NCBI RefSeq assembly: GCF_016820245.1
Contig: NZ_JAFCAR010000004.1
Location: 124,001-188,000, forward strand
DNA length: 64,000 nucleotides
Source: Jannaschia sp. Os4
GTDB taxonomy: Bacteria > Pseudomonadota > Alphaproteobacteria > Rhodobacterales > Rhodobacteraceae
Reading direction: 5' to 3'
The notes under the pieces were generated by a model. It did no database searches. It was not told the origin of the DNA and was given only the letters and a program-made list of their open reading frames with translations. The position numbers and the translations under genes were made by a program. Shown here piece by piece: positions 54,263 to 60,999 of the stretch (positions within the stretch are counted from its first letter, which is position 1; every line of letters begins with the position of its first letter).

Positions 54263-55224
54263 CGGAGCCTCGGGTTCAGCGCGTCGCGCAGCCAGTCGCC
54301 CAGCAGGTTCACCGACAGCGCCAGCATCAGGAGCGTCGCCGCCGGGAAGAACAGGATCCACCACTCGCCGGAGAACAGGTAGTCCTGCCCGATCCGGATC
54401 AGCGTCCCGAGCGACGGCTGCGTCGGCGGCGCGCCCACCCCGAGGAAGGACAGCGTCGCCTCCGCGATGATGGCCAAGGCCAGCGAGATCGTCGCGATCA
54501 CCAGCACCGGAGACAGCACGTTGGGCAGGATGTGCCGGAACAGGATCGACGGCCCCCGCCGCCCCGCCAGCCGCGCCGCCGAGACGTAGTCCTTGCGGCT
54601 CTCCACCATCGTCGCCCCCCGCACGACTCGCGCGAACTGCACCCAGTCCGACAGGCCGATGGCGATGATCAGCACCCAGATCGCCATGTCGTCGCGGTTC
54701 TGGACGGGGATCACCCCCTTGGCGATCCCGAAGATCAGCATCGCCACGAGGATCGACGGGAAGGTCAGCTGGATGTCCGCCACCCGCATGATGACCGCGT
54801 CCACCACGCCCCCGGCCCATCCGGCGATCAGCCCCAGCGTGATCCCCAGCACCATCGCGAAGGCCACCGCCATGAACCCGACGAACAGGCTGATCCGCAT
54901 CCCGTAGAGGATGGTCGAGAACACCCCCCGCCCTTGGTCGTCCGTCCCCATGGGGAAGGTCGCGCCCGTGAAGTCGTTCGGCGTCATCGGCGGCGTGAAC
55001 CCGTTCATCAGGTCGAGGGACGCCGGATCGAACGGGTTCGACGGCGCCACCCACGGCGCGAACACCGCCGACAGGATCAGCAGCGTCGACACCGCGAAGG
55101 CGACGATGGCCACGGGCGAGGTCCGGAACGCGTACCACAGGTCCGACTCGACCATCCGCCGCCACCGCGACGGCGGCTTGACCGGTGCGTCCGGCGGCAC
55201 GTCGAGCATGGGCGCGTCCGTCAT
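54259..55224 (-). CDS. Peptide-type ABC transporter permease (DppC-like)
   Basis: 321 residues. A cytoplasmic N-terminal segment precedes a first membrane helix (about 36-58), a periplasmic loop with the family's GTDDQGRGVFS, and a five-helix permease domain with the coupling motif RRGPSILFRHILPNVLSP. The ATG at 55224 overlaps the DppB-like stop (ATGA). Confidence 0.92.
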   Translation of the reverse strand: MTDAPMLDVPPDAPVKPPSRWRRMVESDLWYAFRTSPVAIVAFAVSTLLILSAVFAPWVAPSNPFDPASLDLMNGFTPPMTPNDFTGATFPMGTDDQGRGVFSTILYGMRISLFVGFMAVAFAMVLGITLGLIAGWAGGVVDAVIMRVADIQLTFPSILVAMLIFGIAKGVIPVQNRDDMAIWVLIIAIGLSDWVQFARVVRGATMVESRKDYVSAARLAGRRGPSILFRHILPNVLSPVLVIATISLALAIIAEATLSFLGVGAPPTQPSLGTLIRIGQDYLFSGEWWILFFPAATLLMLALSVNLLGDWLRDALNPRLR

Positions 55225-56189
55225 CGCTCCGCCCTCAGCCGCGGATCGACCCGCACGTAGAGCAGGTCCACGACCAGGTTGATGCCGACGAACATGACCG
55301 AGATGAACATCAGGTAGGCGGCCATCACGGGGATGTCGACGAACTGCACCGCGTTGATGAACAGCAGGCCCACCCCCGGCCACTGGAACACCGTCTCGGT
55401 GATGATGGCGAAGGCGATGATCGACCCCAGCTGCAGGCCCGTCACCGTGATCACCGGCACCAGCGTGTTCTTCAGCGCGTGGCGCAGGCGGATCGCGCGC
55501 TCAGACAGGCCGCGCGCCCGCGCGAAGCGCACGTAGTCGGCGCGCAGCTGCTCCAGCATCTCGGACCGCACCAGCCGCATGATCAGCGTCATCTGATAGA
55601 GCCCCAGCGTGATCGCGGGCAGAATCAGCGACTTCAGCCCCGAGACGGTCAGCAGCCCCGTCGTCCACCACCCGAGGTCCACCACCTCGCCCCGCCCGAA
55701 GGTCGGCAGCCACCTCAGCTGCACCCCGAAGACGTAGATCAGCAGGATGCCGATCAGGAAGGTCGGCAGCGAGACCCCGATCAGCGAGGCCGACATGATC
55801 GCGTTGGCCAGCACGCCGCGACGGTTGATCGCCGTGTAGATGCCCAGCCCGATCCCCAGCGCGATGGCGAAGACGCCTGAGATCAACGCAAGCTCCAGCG
55901 TCGCGGGCAGCCGCTCGGCGATGATGTCCGCCACGGGCCGCGCCTGCCGGTAGGAGATGCCGAAGTCGCCCTGCACCGCGCGGGCCATGAAGTCGAAATA
56001 CTGCACGGGGAACGGGTCGTTCAGCCCCAGCCGCTCGCGCAGCCGCTCGATGTCCTCGACCGTCCGCTCCTGCCCCAGCATGGAATCGATCGGGTCGCCC
56101 ACGAAGCGGAACATCGCGAACGCCACCAGCCCCACGGCCAAGAGCACGAGGACCGACTGCAGGATCCGGCGGAGGATGTAGGCGAACAT
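55221..56189 (-). CDS. Peptide-type ABC transporter permease (DppB-like)
   Basis: 322 residues, six membrane segments, with GDFGISYRQARPV, FARARGLSERAIRLRHALKNTLVPVITV (coupling region) and the C-terminal YVRVDPRLR typical of DppB. AAGGTGGGG lies before ATG 56189; a GTG at 56198 is an alternative start. First gene of the permease/ATPase block, 69 bases after the cysteine-rich protein gene. Confidence 0.92.
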   Translation of the reverse strand: MFAYILRRILQSVLVLLAVGLVAFAMFRFVGDPIDSMLGQERTVEDIERLRERLGLNDPFPVQYFDFMARAVQGDFGISYRQARPVADIIAERLPATLELALISGVFAIALGIGLGIYTAINRRGVLANAIMSASLIGVSLPTFLIGILLIYVFGVQLRWLPTFGRGEVVDLGWWTTGLLTVSGLKSLILPAITLGLYQMTLIMRLVRSEMLEQLRADYVRFARARGLSERAIRLRHALKNTLVPVITVTGLQLGSIIAFAIITETVFQWPGVGLLFINAVQFVDIPVMAAYLMFISVMFVGINLVVDLLYVRVDPRLRAER

Positions 56190-56258
56190 CGCCCCCACCT
56201 TGCGCGGGGGCCGTGCGGGGTCAAGCGCGCCGGCGCCCGCCCCGCCCGCAGGGACGCG

Positions 56259-56849
56259 TCAGAGGCGCGGCAGCAGCCCCTCGCACCGCATGTCGCAGAT
56301 GGCCGACCGCAGCTCGCAGATGACCGGATGGGCGTCGCAGGCGAGGTCCTCGAGGAAGCAGTCGAGGTAGCAGCCCGCCGTCGATCCGTCGGGCGGCACC
56401 CACCCCCCGATCACGCCGCCGAGCCCGAGGCCCCGGCCCCGCCCCGCGCGCCCGGCCAACGCCCGCATCATCGCCGGCGTGCGGTCCGCGCCCCGGTCTC
56501 GGCCCTCCGCCATGCGGCCCGCCCGACCGCCCCGCGCCCGCTGCCCGAGCAAGGCCAGCGCCGCCGCCGCCGTCGCGTCCTCCGGCGCGGCGAGCGTCAG
56601 GCGCATCATCGGGTGCGAATGCCCCTCGCACGGCGCCGACCCGATCCGCTCGGCCCGCTCGATGGCCGCGGCGGGGAACGCCACCCAGTCCGAGCAGCCC
56701 GCCTGCGAGACCATCACCGTCCCCTCCGCCTCGCCCGCCTTCACCATCACCTCCAGCGACGGCCCCCCGTCGCCGTCCTCCATCGTGCCGTCCGAGAGCG
56801 CCCGCGCGAGTTCCGCGCCGGACAGGGTCTGTCCTGCGTCGTCAGCCAT
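56259..56849 (-). CDS. Unknown protein with a regularly spaced C-terminal cysteine stripe
   Basis: 196 residues, no recognised family. The acidic N-terminal third is followed by an Ala-rich part (about 85-105), an Arg/Gly-rich stretch (about 103-150) and a final segment with six cysteines at 160, 164, 171, 178, 185 and 189 (C-X3-C-X6-C-X6-C-X6-C-X3-C). C52, C74 and HSHPMM (77-82) are also present. An AGGAGG site six bases before ATG 56849 and an AT-richer upstream region argue that it is expressed. It lies just ahead of the dppB-like gene. Heptad-spaced cysteines on one helix face suggest metal binding or disulfides; function is not known. Confidence 0.72.
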   Translation of the reverse strand: MADDAGQTLSGAELARALSDGTMEDGDGGPSLEVMVKAGEAEGTVMVSQAGCSDWVAFPAAAIERAERIGSAPCEGHSHPMMRLTLAAPEDATAAAALALLGQRARGGRAGRMAEGRDRGADRTPAMMRALAGRAGRGRGLGLGGVIGGWVPPDGSTAGCYLDCFLEDLACDAHPVICELRSAICDMRCEGLLPRL

Positions 56850-58105
56850 GATCGCCTCCTGTGAAGATGACGTAACGTAAAGCAAGCTCGGCGATCCGTC
56901 CATGGCCGTGCCTGCGAACGCGGTTTGCCTGACGACCGCAGCCCGACCGTCGCCCCTCCCCTCACGCGGCGGCAAACGCGCGCGCCTCTCCCGACGAGGC
57001 ACCGCGTCCCGGCGCGAGGGTGGCTCCGCCACCCGTCCCGCCTCCTCCTGGCCACCTCGGTCGTCGTCGATGGGAGGCGGGCCGCGACGGCCGCCGTCCA
57101 CCCGCAGGGCGTCGCCCCCGCCGTCGGCGAACCGGTCTCCCTCACGCGACTGTCTTCGAGCCGCCGGCTCGCCCCGGCGTTCCGTCCGCACGCTGCGGAC
57201 TCCCGCACCGAACGGGCCCAACCAGCTCCGGGAACCAGTTGCCCTGCGCGCATGCTTGTCCCGTTCCTGGCATGTTAAAGTTCGATGAGAGCCTCCGTAT
57301 CGCTGGCGCTGCCGCGTCCGTCGCCGCCACCGGGAAGTTCGGCGTCGAAGGCGACGACCCCGCTCCGCTGCGCTCCGGCGATCCCCGTGGCGCGGCCAAT
57401 GAGAACCATTTTCCGCCGGTCGCGGCACGAGGACCGCGGTGGAAGGCCCCCGCACGGTCATCCGCCCGAGAGACCGCGCGCCTATCCCTTCGGTGCTCGG
57501 CTCCACGGCGGGGGCTGTCCCGCTCGCTCACGGGACGATGCCGAAAGGATCGCCCCAAACGCCGTCGCCTTGCCCATCCCCGACGAACGACGGCGTGCCC
57601 GTTTCCTGCGGAATCACAAACCCTCGACGCAGCCGACCGCGCCGCGGTCGCGGCAGGGCCCCCGCTCTACCCCCCATACTCTAGGGCTGGCCCTCCGCCG
57701 GTCCCGCCGCTCCGGAGACGAAGCGCATCGGGCGTGGTGCGGCGTGCCCTGCCGCGGCAACGTCGAGAACGGGATCCCGTTCTCGCGCGACATCGGCAAC
57801 GCGGCTCAGCCTGCCAGGGGCGCCCGCCGCCCGCGCGGCCTAGCGCCGCTTGCCACCGAACGCCGATCCTTGCCCCGTTCATTGCGTCCATCAATCCAAG
57901 GGCGACCGTGCCCGGCGCCCTCGCGCCACCTCGCACCGTTCGCGCGCGGGGGATCCCCAGCGCATTCCCCTCGACCCGCTCGGATGCTCCACCCCCGACC
58001 CGGGCCTCGACTCAGCGCCGCCGAGCCTCCTCCTTCGATCCGATCCACGGATACGGCCGCGGTCGATGCGCCCCGCCGATCTGCCTCGTCGGTTCGCGGA
58101 CGGCC
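56850..58105. other. About 1.25 kb without a credible gene
   Basis: Long frames exist on both strands, but they overlap one another, lack ribosome sites and resemble nothing I know. The 30 bases next to the cysteine-rich gene (TTTACGTTACGTCAT, about 56866-56880) are AT-richer and may be its promoter (TGGACG-17-TACGTT on the minus strand). Small hairpins occur, such as GTCCGCA/TGCGGAC near 57185 and CGAGCC/GGCTCG near 57158. I see no IS ends, tRNA or rRNA. Confidence 0.6.
57764..57785. repeat. Perfect 22-bp palindrome
   Basis: CGAGAACGGGA followed directly by TCCCGTTCTCG, with no spacer. It has the form of an operator or recombination site, or could extrude as a cruciform. No gene starts beside it. 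Confidence 0.6.
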
Positions 58106-59340
58106 ATGAGGTGCGGACGGCGCGCGAGGTCGGTCCGGGCCGCGAGGTGCGGACGGGCCGCGGAGTACGAACGACCGTGACGCTAAGATGGGACATGAGG
58201 TGCGGACGGCGCGCGAGGTCGGAAGGGGCGCGAGACGTCCAACGGGGTGCGCGGTCGAAGGGGGTGAGAGAGGCGGGCGGGCTGTGGGGTTACGGACGAC
58301 CGCGAGGTGGCAGCTGGCTGCGGGACGCGGAAGTTCGAGAGGCCGAGACGGGTCAAGGGATACGGACGGGGCGCGAGTTCGGATAGGGCACAAGGTCGGA
58401 CAGTCTGCGAGGTCGGAAGGGCCCCGAGGTGAGGAGAGGCGGCAGGGTGCGGACGACCGCGAGGGGCGGACGGGCCGCGAGGTGCGGAGGAGCTCGGGGG
58501 CAGGATGGGCCATGAGGTAGGGACGGCGCGCGGAATAGACCCGCGCGCAAGGTCGGTCGGCGCGCTGGATCGGACGGCGCGCGAGAGCGGACCGCACGCA
58601 AGGTCGGACGGCGCGCGAGGCCGGATGGGGCATGAGGTCAGACAGGCTGCGGGGTCGGAAGGGCCACGAGGTGGCGACAGGCGATGGGGTGCGGACGACC
58701 CCGAGGGGCGGACGGACCGCGAGGCGCGGGGGAGTTCGGGGCAGGATGGGCCATGAGGTAGGGACAGCGCGCGAGATCGGATGAGGCACAAGGTCGGACA
58801 GGCTGCGGGGTCGGAAGGGCCACGAGGTGACGACAGGCGGTGGAGTGCGGACGACCCCGAGGGGCGGACGGGCCGCGAGATGCGGAGGAGCTCGGGGGAG
58901 GATGGGCCATCAGGTAGGGACGGCGCGGAATAGACCCGCGCGCAGGGTCGGTCGGTGCGCTAGATCGGACGGGGCGCGAGAGCGGACCGCACGCAAGGTC
59001 GGACGGCGCGCGAGGTCGGACCGCGCGCAAGGTCGGACGGGGCGCGAGGTCGGATGGGACACATGGTCGGACAGGCTGCGGGGTCGGAAGGGCCACGAGG
59101 TGAGGACAGGCGGTACGGTGCGGACGACCGCGAGGGGCGGACGGGCCGCGAGGTGCGGAGGAGCTCGGGGGCAGGATGGGCTAGGAGGTAGGGACGGCGC
59201 GCGAGATCGGACCGCGCACAAGGTTGAACGGCGCGCGAGGTCGGACGGCGCGCAAGGTCGGACGGGACGCGACGTGAGGACAGGCTACGGGGTGCGGCCA
59301 ACCGCGGGGTGCGGATGACCGCGAGAGGCGGACGGGCCCC
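58106..59340. repeat. Two-level minisatellite: 17/18-bp units in larger copies of 156-273 bp
   Basis: Almost the whole stretch is built from head-to-tail units of 17 or 18 bp with consensus near GGTCGGACGGCGCGCGA. The units form longer copies starting GAGGTG(A/G) at 58426 (242 bp), 58668 (156 bp), 58824 (273 bp), 59097 (174 bp) and a partial one at 59271. Within each, the same ordered series recurs (for example GGTGCGGACGACCGCGA, GGAGCTCGGGG, GGATGGGCCATGAGG, GACAGGCTGCGGGGTCGG). 58106-58425 is a more decayed copy. A 17-bp unit shifts the reading frame at each step, and all frames are open only by base composition, so I do not call a protein here. Confidence 0.85.
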
Positions 59341-59432
59341 ACCGGGCACGCGGCGCCCGACCGCGGCCCGCGGCGCGACCTCAGGCAGCGGGGCTCGACG
59401 CGGGCCGCGGCGCCGCGCTTCCCCGTGCATCG

Positions 59433-59454
59433 GGGCGCGGCACGGGCCGCGCCC
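59433..59454 (-). terminator. Stem-loop just after the binding-protein gene
   Basis: GGGCGCGGC - ACGG - GCCGCGCCC is a perfect 9-bp stem starting seven bases past the binding-protein stop. It may end or stabilise that transcript before the repeat array. No T-run. Confidence 0.5.
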
Positions 59455-59460
59455 GCGCCG

Positions 59461-60999
59461 TCACATCTCGATCCAGCGCAGCACCACGAAGTTGTCCGGG
59501 CGCTGCACGAGGTCGATCCCCGCCCGCGCGCCCCAGAGCAGCGGCTGCACGTAGAGGGGCACGTAGGCCGTGTCCTCCGCGAGGATCGTCGCCACCTCGT
59601 CCAGCATCGCCTGGCGCGCCGCGTCGTCGATCTCGGCTTGGATCATCGGCAGCAGCTCGTCCACGCGCGCGTTCGAGTAGCCGCCGAAGTTCCACGATCC
59701 AAGCTTCGCCTCCTCGTCCGGCGTCGCCGCGAGGAATCGGATCGGGTGCTCCGCGTCGAACGTCCCCGGCGACCAGCCCAGCAGGTACATGTCGTGCGCG
59801 GGCGAGCGCAGCTCCGGCCAGTACTGCGCGACCGGCATGGTCTCCAGCGTGACGTCCAGCCCGACCTGCTCCAGCATCGCGGTGATCGCCGTGCACACCG
59901 CCTCGTCGTTGAGGTAGCGGTCGTTCGGGCATTTGAGCGAGACCTGCGCGCCCTCGGCCCCCGCGCCGGCGATGGCCGCGCGCGCCGCCTCCGCGTCGTA
60001 GGCGGGCCGCTCGAGTCCCTCGGTGAAGCCGCGCATCGCGGGCGAGACCAGCTGCGACGCCTCCTCGGCCGAGCCGCGCATCACCGTGCGCAGGATCGCG
60101 GGCACGTTCACAGCCTGCGCGATGGCGCCCCGCACCACCGGATCGGCCAGCACGTTCTCGCCCCCGCCGACCAGCGTCCCGGCGTCGTGCGGGAAGCCCA
60201 GCATGATGACCCGCGCCTCGATCCCGCGGATCACCTGCACGTCGGGCGCCGCGTCCAGCCGGTCGGCGTCCTGCACGGGCACCGGCTCGATCAGGTCCAG
60301 CTCGCCCGACAGCAATGCGGCCACCGAGGTCGCCGCGTTCTGCACCGGGGTGAACACGGCTGTCGTCACGTTGCCCCGCTCCTCGCCCCACCAGCCGTCG
60401 AACGCCTCCAGCGTCGTGGACAGCCCCGGCTGCCGCTCGGTCACGCGGTAGGCGCCCGTGCCGTTGGCGTTCAGCGTGGCGAAGTTCCCCGTCTCGATCG
60501 CGGGCCGCGTCGCGCCGTTCGCCTCGGCCCAGCCGGAATCCATGATCATCCAGTTGGCGATGCTGTCCGGGAAGATCGGGTTCGGCGCCGCCGTCATGAT
60601 CTCGACGGTCGTCGCGTCCGGCGCGCGCACCTCCGTCACGCCCGCGAACCACGACGCGGTGTCCGATTCCGGCGACGAGGCCCGCTCGTAGGAGAACACC
60701 ACGTCCTCCGCGTCGAACGCCTCGCCCCCGTGGAACGTCACGCCCTCGCGCAGGGTGAAGCGCCAGCCCTCGCCGTCGCCGATCGGCTCCCACGCCGTGG
60801 CCAGCGCCGGCTCGATCGACATGTCGCGGCCCCGCCGCACCAACCCCTCGTAGACGTTGCCCAAGAGCGAGAAGACCGGCGCCGAGTTCCCCGCATGCGG
60901 GTCCAGCGTCGTCGGATCGGAGGTCGCGGCGTAGCGCAGCGTCTCGGCGGTGGCCGGCATCGCGGTCGCCAGCAGCAGGGCGGATAGGGTCAGGCGCAT
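59461..60999 (-). CDS. Peptide-type ABC transporter substrate-binding protein (SBP family 5)
   Basis: 512 residues. Signal peptide MRLTLSALLLATAMPATA, then the DppA/OppA fold: LRYAATSDPTTLDPHAG, WRFTLREGVTFHGGEAFDAEDVVFSYER and GTGAYRV. Ligand may be a peptide, an opine-like or a quaternary compound. It is on the same strand as the dppB-like permease, but 3.27 kb upstream of it. It is divergent from the XRE-cupin regulator and the demethylating dehydrogenase, which suggests an N-methylated substrate. Confidence 0.92.
   Translation of the reverse strand: MRLTLSALLLATAMPATAETLRYAATSDPTTLDPHAGNSAPVFSLLGNVYEGLVRRGRDMSIEPALATAWEPIGDGEGWRFTLREGVTFHGGEAFDAEDVVFSYERASSPESDTASWFAGVTEVRAPDATTVEIMTAAPNPIFPDSIANWMIMDSGWAEANGATRPAIETGNFATLNANGTGAYRVTERQPGLSTTLEAFDGWWGEERGNVTTAVFTPVQNAATSVAALLSGELDLIEPVPVQDADRLDAAPDVQVIRGIEARVIMLGFPHDAGTLVGGGENVLADPVVRGAIAQAVNVPAILRTVMRGSAEEASQLVSPAMRGFTEGLERPAYDAEAARAAIAGAGAEGAQVSLKCPNDRYLNDEAVCTAITAMLEQVGLDVTLETMPVAQYWPELRSPAHDMYLLGWSPGTFDAEHPIRFLAATPDEEAKLGSWNFGGYSNARVDELLPMIQAEIDDAARQAMLDEVATILAEDTAYVPLYVQPLLWGARAGIDLVQRPDNFVVLRWIEM

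Follow-up and report, generated by a model that had tools for sequence, protein, structure and literature searches.

What is a 1.2-kb run of short degenerate repeats doing between two genes of an ABC transporter? The question is raised by a 64,000-nucleotide stretch of the Jannaschia sp. Os4 genome, hereafter the window, in which an unbroken head-to-tail run of 71 degenerate 17/18-bp units occupies positions 58097-59338 (+ strand). On one side lies the gene of a substrate-binding protein (SBP; SBP_bac_5, 59461-60999, - strand; Pfam PF00496, E 3.2e-72), the upstream neighbour in the operon sense; on the other lies that of an ABC permease (55221-56198, - strand; Pfam PF00528, E 2.5e-38), the downstream neighbour. 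The array therefore does separate transporter genes, as a preliminary description of this DNA had it. The reading that best accounts for the data, and that can be held with good though not full confidence, is a non-coding minisatellite that grew in place, by slippage and then by block-wise recombination, in a tolerant spot, most likely with little or no function. The array is probably filler and not a new kind of element: bacterial satellites are already known, and this one is a well-developed new example.

Units of the array

The array is delimited by a cyclic profile HMM trained on it, by TRF, by the unit parse and by the consensus. A local search with the HMM places its bounds at 58097 and 59338 with 708.8 bits, while ten 8-kb Markov sequences reach at most 21.0 bits and the window elsewhere at most 21.2 bits. 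When applied to 58106-59340, the model yields 72 pieces, namely 44 units of 17 bp, 24 of 18 bp, two of 16 bp, one of 19 bp, and a 4-bp stub. The trained unit consensus is GGTCGGACGGGCCGCGA, and the unit variant of the preliminary description is GGTCGGACGGCGCGCGA; the array is G/A-rich on the + strand. TRF reports periods of 17, 18, 34/35 and 156 bp, all inside 58096-59323. Autocorrelation of the array peaks at lag 17 (z 13.3), followed by lags 34 (z 8.4) and 242 (z 6.7), then 35 and 156 (z 6.3), and the adjacent 56860-58100 has no autocorrelation period, its largest z being 2.6. Self-trained scores amount to 424 at period 17 and 431 at period 18, whereas eight mononucleotide shuffles of its sequence score between -13 and -31 at period 17; that both periods score equally well is expected of a 17/18 mixture.

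TRF, autocorrelation and the HMM parse thus agree with the initial report of about 1.2 kb of degenerate 17/18-bp units, and tandem-repeat detection, which that report had proposed as a check, recovers the 17-bp period. Its argument that an array without spacers is not CRISPR holds as well: the units are degenerate and follow one another head to tail, which places the array outside that class.

A second level of blocks

The units are organised in longer blocks that start at 58394, 58636, 58792, 59065 and 59239, all on the + strand, and the full copies are 86-92% identical to each other. Copy 1 (58394-58635, 242 bp) is 92% identical to copy 3 over 232 bp and 88% to copies 2 and 4. Copy 2 (58636-58791, 156 bp) shares 91% identity with copy 3 over 136 bp and 90% with copy 4 over 147 bp, while copy 3 (58792-59064, 273 bp) is 86% identical to copy 4 over 206 bp. 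Block alignment defines copy 4 (59065-59238, 174 bp). A partial fifth block (59239-59338) follows; over 95 bp it is 77% identical to the beginning of copy 1, positions 1-95 of which align to positions 175-268 counted from the start of copy 4. Placing the boundary at 59239 is a matter of choice, as the alignments of copies 1 and 3 to copy 4 continue past it to 59270 (206 bp). The block sizes given in the preliminary description are therefore recovered from the block starts for 242, 156 and 273 bp, whereas the 174-bp copy with its partial successor is matched with a right boundary that depends on this choice.

Series of unit variants reappear in unchanged order at offsets of 9, 14, 16, 23, 25 and 39 units, and 29 monomer classes (single linkage, edit distance 2) stand in recurring order, the hallmark of a higher-order repeat. 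Together with the identity between blocks, this upholds the earlier proposal that whole blocks were duplicated after the units had diverged. To the left of 58394, nearly 300 bp of like units (58097-58393, + strand) are mostly devoid of this order: 58106-58393 matches the blocks piecewise only, at 70-89%. The block order nonetheless extends one or two units into this part, order runs beginning at 58359 and 58377.

Aligned to copy 1, copy 3 shows gaps of 2 bp and 1 bp and copy 2 a gap of 1 bp, and because of these indels the reading frame is not kept between blocks. That three block spacings are multiples of three, to which attention had been drawn, carries no meaning, as 242 breaks it, the 1-2 bp indels shift the frame and no codon signal is present.

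The junction between the two transporter genes

Of 19 same-genus genomes, 16 allow the junction to be read; G009, G012 and G017 were left out for want of an SBP match above 43% identity. The gap between the SBP and permease genes, measured in the relatives between tblastn ends, is 100-233 bp long in seven of the 16 and 650-2147 bp in the other nine; it reaches 3262 bp in the window (56199-59460). The array is missing from all 16 syntenic gaps read: TRF returns no row in any of them, and the cyclic HMM does not exceed 18.4 bits at any of the 16 loci (L047-L062). A single 39-bp DNA match (E 0.009) connects the relatives' gaps to that of the window, outside the array. By DNA similarity, the long gaps of L047, L052, L053, L059 and L060 share one gene, and those of L048 and L055 share another. 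Of five gap ORFs compared with Pfam, three represent the first gene and match HAD (HAD-type hydrolase), one of these below the gathering score; a fourth represents the second gene, which lies antisense, and matches MatE; the fifth, in the L049 gap, has no Pfam match. Since the gap is short or filled with other DNA, without the array, in 16 genomes, the junction is a spot that tolerates insertions across the genus. The array pinpoints a place within an ABC-transporter cluster where insertions are tolerated.

Two further features share the gap with the array. An orphan 196-residue ORF with a cysteine-rich C-terminus (56259-56849, - strand) scores +0.55 per codon in the codon model described below; it matches nothing in the 39 other relatives that were searched, nor any model of Pfam or NCBIfam. 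Its codon usage is genome-like. Between this ORF and the array extends a stretch without codon signal in any frame (56859-58096), which shows no periodicity by autocorrelation or by self-trained score. Its ORF 57285-58109 has no Pfam or NCBIfam match, and 31 ORF queries (E 0.05) detect no remnants of the relatives' gap genes in 56850-58100. The length of this non-coding stretch, 1.24 kb, nearly equals that of the adjoining array. A scan of 56000-59700 finds no sigma-70-like promoter or intrinsic terminator, a result that is uninformative as shuffles give just 0.0 and 0.6 matches.

Probable growth in place and relation to known repeats

The array would have started from a G/A-rich unit of about 17 bp, amplified by replication slippage, whose copies then diverged. 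Blocks of 9-16 units were subsequently duplicated, a step documented by the recurring ordered variants, presumably through unequal recombination or longer slippage. The strand asymmetry described below would come from the founder unit, and the array sits in the SBP-permease junction, whose tolerance is attested in the genus. A slippage hot spot had been named among the possible roles, and the anatomy of the array supports slippage as its origin. Growth in place without function is further favoured by a similar two-level array of 18-bp units in a different gene context, in a genome of another genus of the family (G161). Several points pull the other way. That 1.2 kb persisted through 8-14% divergence between blocks might indicate a useful element. 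The family contains two arrays whose units are nearly equal in size and similar in consensus, which could reflect a common constraint or a common origin. The unit-position test presented below is weak, and its non-independent versions point to constraint.

A prokaryotic satellite has been defined by four or more units of 10-200 bp in tandem, with one length shared by at least 60% of them (Subirana and Messeguer 2019, PMC6749651). With 71 units of 16-19 bp, 44 of which (62%) measure 17 bp, the array conforms in unit size, unit number and length, and adds a clear second level of blocks. According to the same source, satellites are few in most prokaryotic species, about 40% of those in bacteria are unique and outside any family, and transposition of the non-coding ones is rare; in that paper, the terms “higher order”, “slippage” and “Alphaproteobacteria” never occur. 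Bacterial tandem repeats of constant size, 20-21 and 52 nt, have also been described (PMC8161180). They are likewise generally non-coding, with a near-constant unit whose sequence varies between species, but they occur many times per genome, in contrast to the single locus of 17-18-bp units in the window. Satellites of Bacillus coagulans are transcribed (PMC8625621), and minisatellites make up 2-4% of the loci in a table of variable segments of E. coli (PMC2884548).

Among the open-access titles listed for higher-order repeats with bacterial terms, a limited survey from which non-existence is not claimed, none reports a bacterial two-level minisatellite. The two-level pattern is best known from eukaryotic centromeric DNA, where higher-order repeats such as alpha satellite arrange divergent monomers in duplicated multi-monomer blocks. 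The array shares this arrangement of diverged monomers, but it is bacterial, only 1.2 kb long, built on a 17-bp monomer and without a centromere. It is therefore a clean bacterial two-level satellite, illustrating that diverged monomers can be duplicated block by block in the absence of a centromere.

Strand asymmetry and a possible role of Rho

The array is strongly asymmetric between its strands. In the operon sense, its RNA would contain 49% C and 24% G, and YC dinucleotides reach 0.33 per nt, as compared to 0.125-0.148 in three neighbouring stretches. All 1165 of its 78-nt windows have a C/G ratio above 1 and 60% a ratio above 2, the corresponding values in 400 kb of the own genome, both strands, being 47% and 0.8%. 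It is also the longest asymmetric run in 464 kb sampled of this genome, with 1316 nt against 777 for the next. A Rho-utilisation (rut) site is described as 78 nt with more C than G and regularly spaced C, and C-rich, G-poor RNA is preferred by Rho (PMC6407284). The excess of C over G in 78 nt that characterises Rho-dependent terminators is thus found in the array, a weak indication at a base rate of 47%.

These figures are consistent with a giant Rho-utilisation attenuator, in which an untranslated C-rich 1.2 kb would load Rho and lower the expression of the permease relative to that of the binding protein, with the copy number tuning the effect. The array resembles the rut sites of PMC6407284 in being C>G asymmetric within a stretch without codon signal, but it is about 16 times longer than a 78-nt site. 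Several observations make such an attenuator unlikely. Amplification of any skewed unit yields the same asymmetry. Two arrays found elsewhere, described below, are oriented otherwise with respect to their genes: that of Paractinoplanes ovalisporus (L136) lies between two same-strand genes with the G-rich strand as sense, opposite to the window, and that of G161 lies between convergent genes. In seven of the 16 relatives, moreover, the gap spans only 100-233 bp. The low probability given to this explanation follows from the skewed founder, which would give the same result, and from the orientation of these two arrays. Its extension to a slippage-tunable Rho rheostat, in which block recombination would alter the array length between the binding-protein and permease genes and thereby set the ratio of two products of one operon, is slightly less likely still. 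The array offers a simple way to test whether Rho is recruited when C exceeds G so strongly between the genes of an operon.

Conservation of unit positions and possible protein binding

A protein-binding array had been among the first suggestions for this locus. In a version modelled on the proposal made for constant-size bacterial repeats (PMC8161180), a nucleoid-organising protein might polymerise on the regularly spaced units. The 71 units of near-constant size, the strong conservation of unit positions 1, 2, 5, 6 and 10 in the unit parse, and the similar unit of G161 would fit such a role. A further test compares polymorphism between blocks with the conservation of each unit position, over 17 positions, 54 variable columns and 16 reference units from the left part of the array, a design of low power. 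When conservation is taken from the left part, which makes the comparison independent, the correlation is negligible (rho -0.16, p 0.54), as befits neutral decay. Two other versions, with conservation computed over all units (rho -0.55, p 0.02) or only over block 1 (rho -0.50, p 0.04), point to constraint, but neither is independent, since conservation and polymorphism share data; a split between high- and low-information positions gives p 0.16. Besides the lack of positional constraint in the independent, if weakly powered, test, the unit length varies between 16 and 19 bp, the array forms a single locus that none of the 16 syntenic gaps read contains, and the constant sizes reported in PMC8161180 are 20-21 and 52 nt, not 17-18. 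A protein-binding function is thus not supported by the independent test and is very improbable.

Distribution of the array

A DNA search of the own 3.54-Mb genome finds one array locus. When three mismatches are allowed, a 20-base pattern of the unit matches nine times in the array and eight times elsewhere, the latter matches being isolated and all with three mismatches; two of these eight, scored by the cyclic HMM, fall in the control range (17.7 and 16.4 bits). A periodicity survey covers 864 kb, made up of the window plus 400 kb from the own genome and a further 400 kb from four genomes of the same genus, in 600-bp windows at lags of 10-60 excluding multiples of three. Outside the array, the highest z is 4.6, against 11.5 inside it, with the L222 windows dropped; the autocorrelation match in L222 was caused by a run of 999 N. 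TRF rows of the survey that beat the score of the array or rival its length all have unit lengths that are multiples of three; the 138-bp array of L240 attains a TRF score of 1007, as compared to 525 for the window array, and L247 holds another such set. The L240 array (L240:2700-3381, 4.9 copies) belongs to the same-genus genome G014.

In other genomes, matches are few. A DNA search of 60 relatives at E 0.001 returns seven genomes, the own genome included, and one of 394 family genomes at E 1e-5 returns two, the own genome and G161; among 337 class genomes, the two that match are the own genome and G042. Plasmid and phage collections give no array match. These genome sets overlap, and seven (60 relatives) or two (394 and 337 genomes) candidates per genome were scored, so that sensitivity is limited and the absence of the array from other genomes is not firm. 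The short matches from the search of 60 relatives, at seven loci (L002-L008, 29-54 bp), do not score above 28.0 bits under the cyclic HMM; two of the loci, at 28.0 and 26.9 bits, rise above the 21.0 bits of the best control, and they do so over 35-42 bp or about two units. TRF detects one 15-bp two-copy row in L002 and none in L003 and L258. The minisatellite has so far been seen in this one species.

The search of related genomes for the unit, recommended in the preliminary description, does bring up the similar array of G161. It spans 616 bp (L063:1075-1690) and is made of 18-bp units, with second-level lags of 112, 148 and 130 and a self-trained score of 249 against at most 7.0 for six shuffles. 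Its consensus, GGCGGACGGACCGGCGAG, is G/A-rich and resembles the window unit, and the two arrays are 76% identical over about 80 bp. Both come from the same family and both have a second level, but the G161 array differs in its unit length and is not syntenic, as its neighbours are an RTX-repeat gene on one side and a class II tRNA-synthetase-like gene on the other. Similar consensus and different neighbours may reflect either common origin or convergence. By eye, palindrome-like sequences are visible near L063 7-28 and 1725-1746.

Other arrays of comparable unit size are recovered by pattern. Three CGGAC motifs at 16-18-bp spacing occur in 87 of 394 genomes, the reversed control being non-zero, by eye, in at least as many rows, and no conclusion is drawn from this pattern. 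Three GGTCGGA motifs are found in at least 120 stretches of genome contigs, and among the matches listed the spacing is mostly 18 bp, again by eye. A TRF filter on loci L063 and up (at least 150 bp, period 15-36, non-multiple of three or more than 2% indels) retains at least 19 rows, three of which have a unit of 16 or 17 bp: L136, L203 and L165. The P. ovalisporus array (L136:1407-2079, 17 bp x 39.6), found through a pattern that contains part of the unit, lies between Band 7 and response-regulator genes and may be coding, since a long ORF joins it to the response regulator. L203:3386-3590 is a tandem array of 17 bp x 12.2, and L165:4388-4562 one of 16 bp x 10.9.

Could the array then belong to a mobile or horizontally spread satellite family? 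The partial identity with the G161 array would be in line with this. The family-wide search, with its few candidates scored per genome, yields only these two genomes, however, and a search with the G161 array adds only a 49-bp match in G109 (L258), where TRF finds no repeat. The own genome holds one locus where a transposed family would show several copies, plasmids and phages contribute no match, and the gene neighbours differ in G161. Mobility is therefore a highly implausible account of the array.

Coding capacity and RNA structure

Codon usage was assessed with a model trained on 22 ORFs of window positions 1-52000, picked by G+C at codon positions. Per codon, the SBP gene scores +0.90 and the permease gene +1.09, whereas the array scores between -0.59 and -0.70 in all six frames, each of which contains stops. 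None of the four ORFs that overlap the array matches Pfam or NCBIfam, and the differences between copies 1 and 3 are spread 6/9/7 over the three phases. A decayed or cryptic repeat protein gene, to which long ORFs on both strands and the three block spacings divisible by three might have pointed, is thus already contradicted by the codon scores, the stops, the frame-shifting indels between blocks, the spread of differences over the phases and the lack of any family match, and deserves next to no credence. The earlier view that the array is not a repeat protein is borne out, and the codon-usage test for one continuous frame across the region, put forward in the preliminary description, is negative in all six frames.

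A structured RNA had also been considered. At the gathering threshold, Rfam has nothing in the array and only five tRNAs across the whole window. Folding of four array stretches on both strands gives inconsistent z values, from -2.88 to +0.58: 58416-58725 is low on both strands (-2.16 and -2.88), and the other six folds range from -1.6 to +0.58. This role is thus not supported. No G3 motif of a G-quadruplex occurs on either strand of the array; two-tetrad motifs number 37 on the + strand and 0 on the - strand, a count without shuffle control. In the adjoining non-coding stretch, 57481-57790 gives folds more stable than those of shuffles on either strand (z -3.31 and -2.07) and harbours an inverted repeat that pairs 57633-57659 with 57746-57772.
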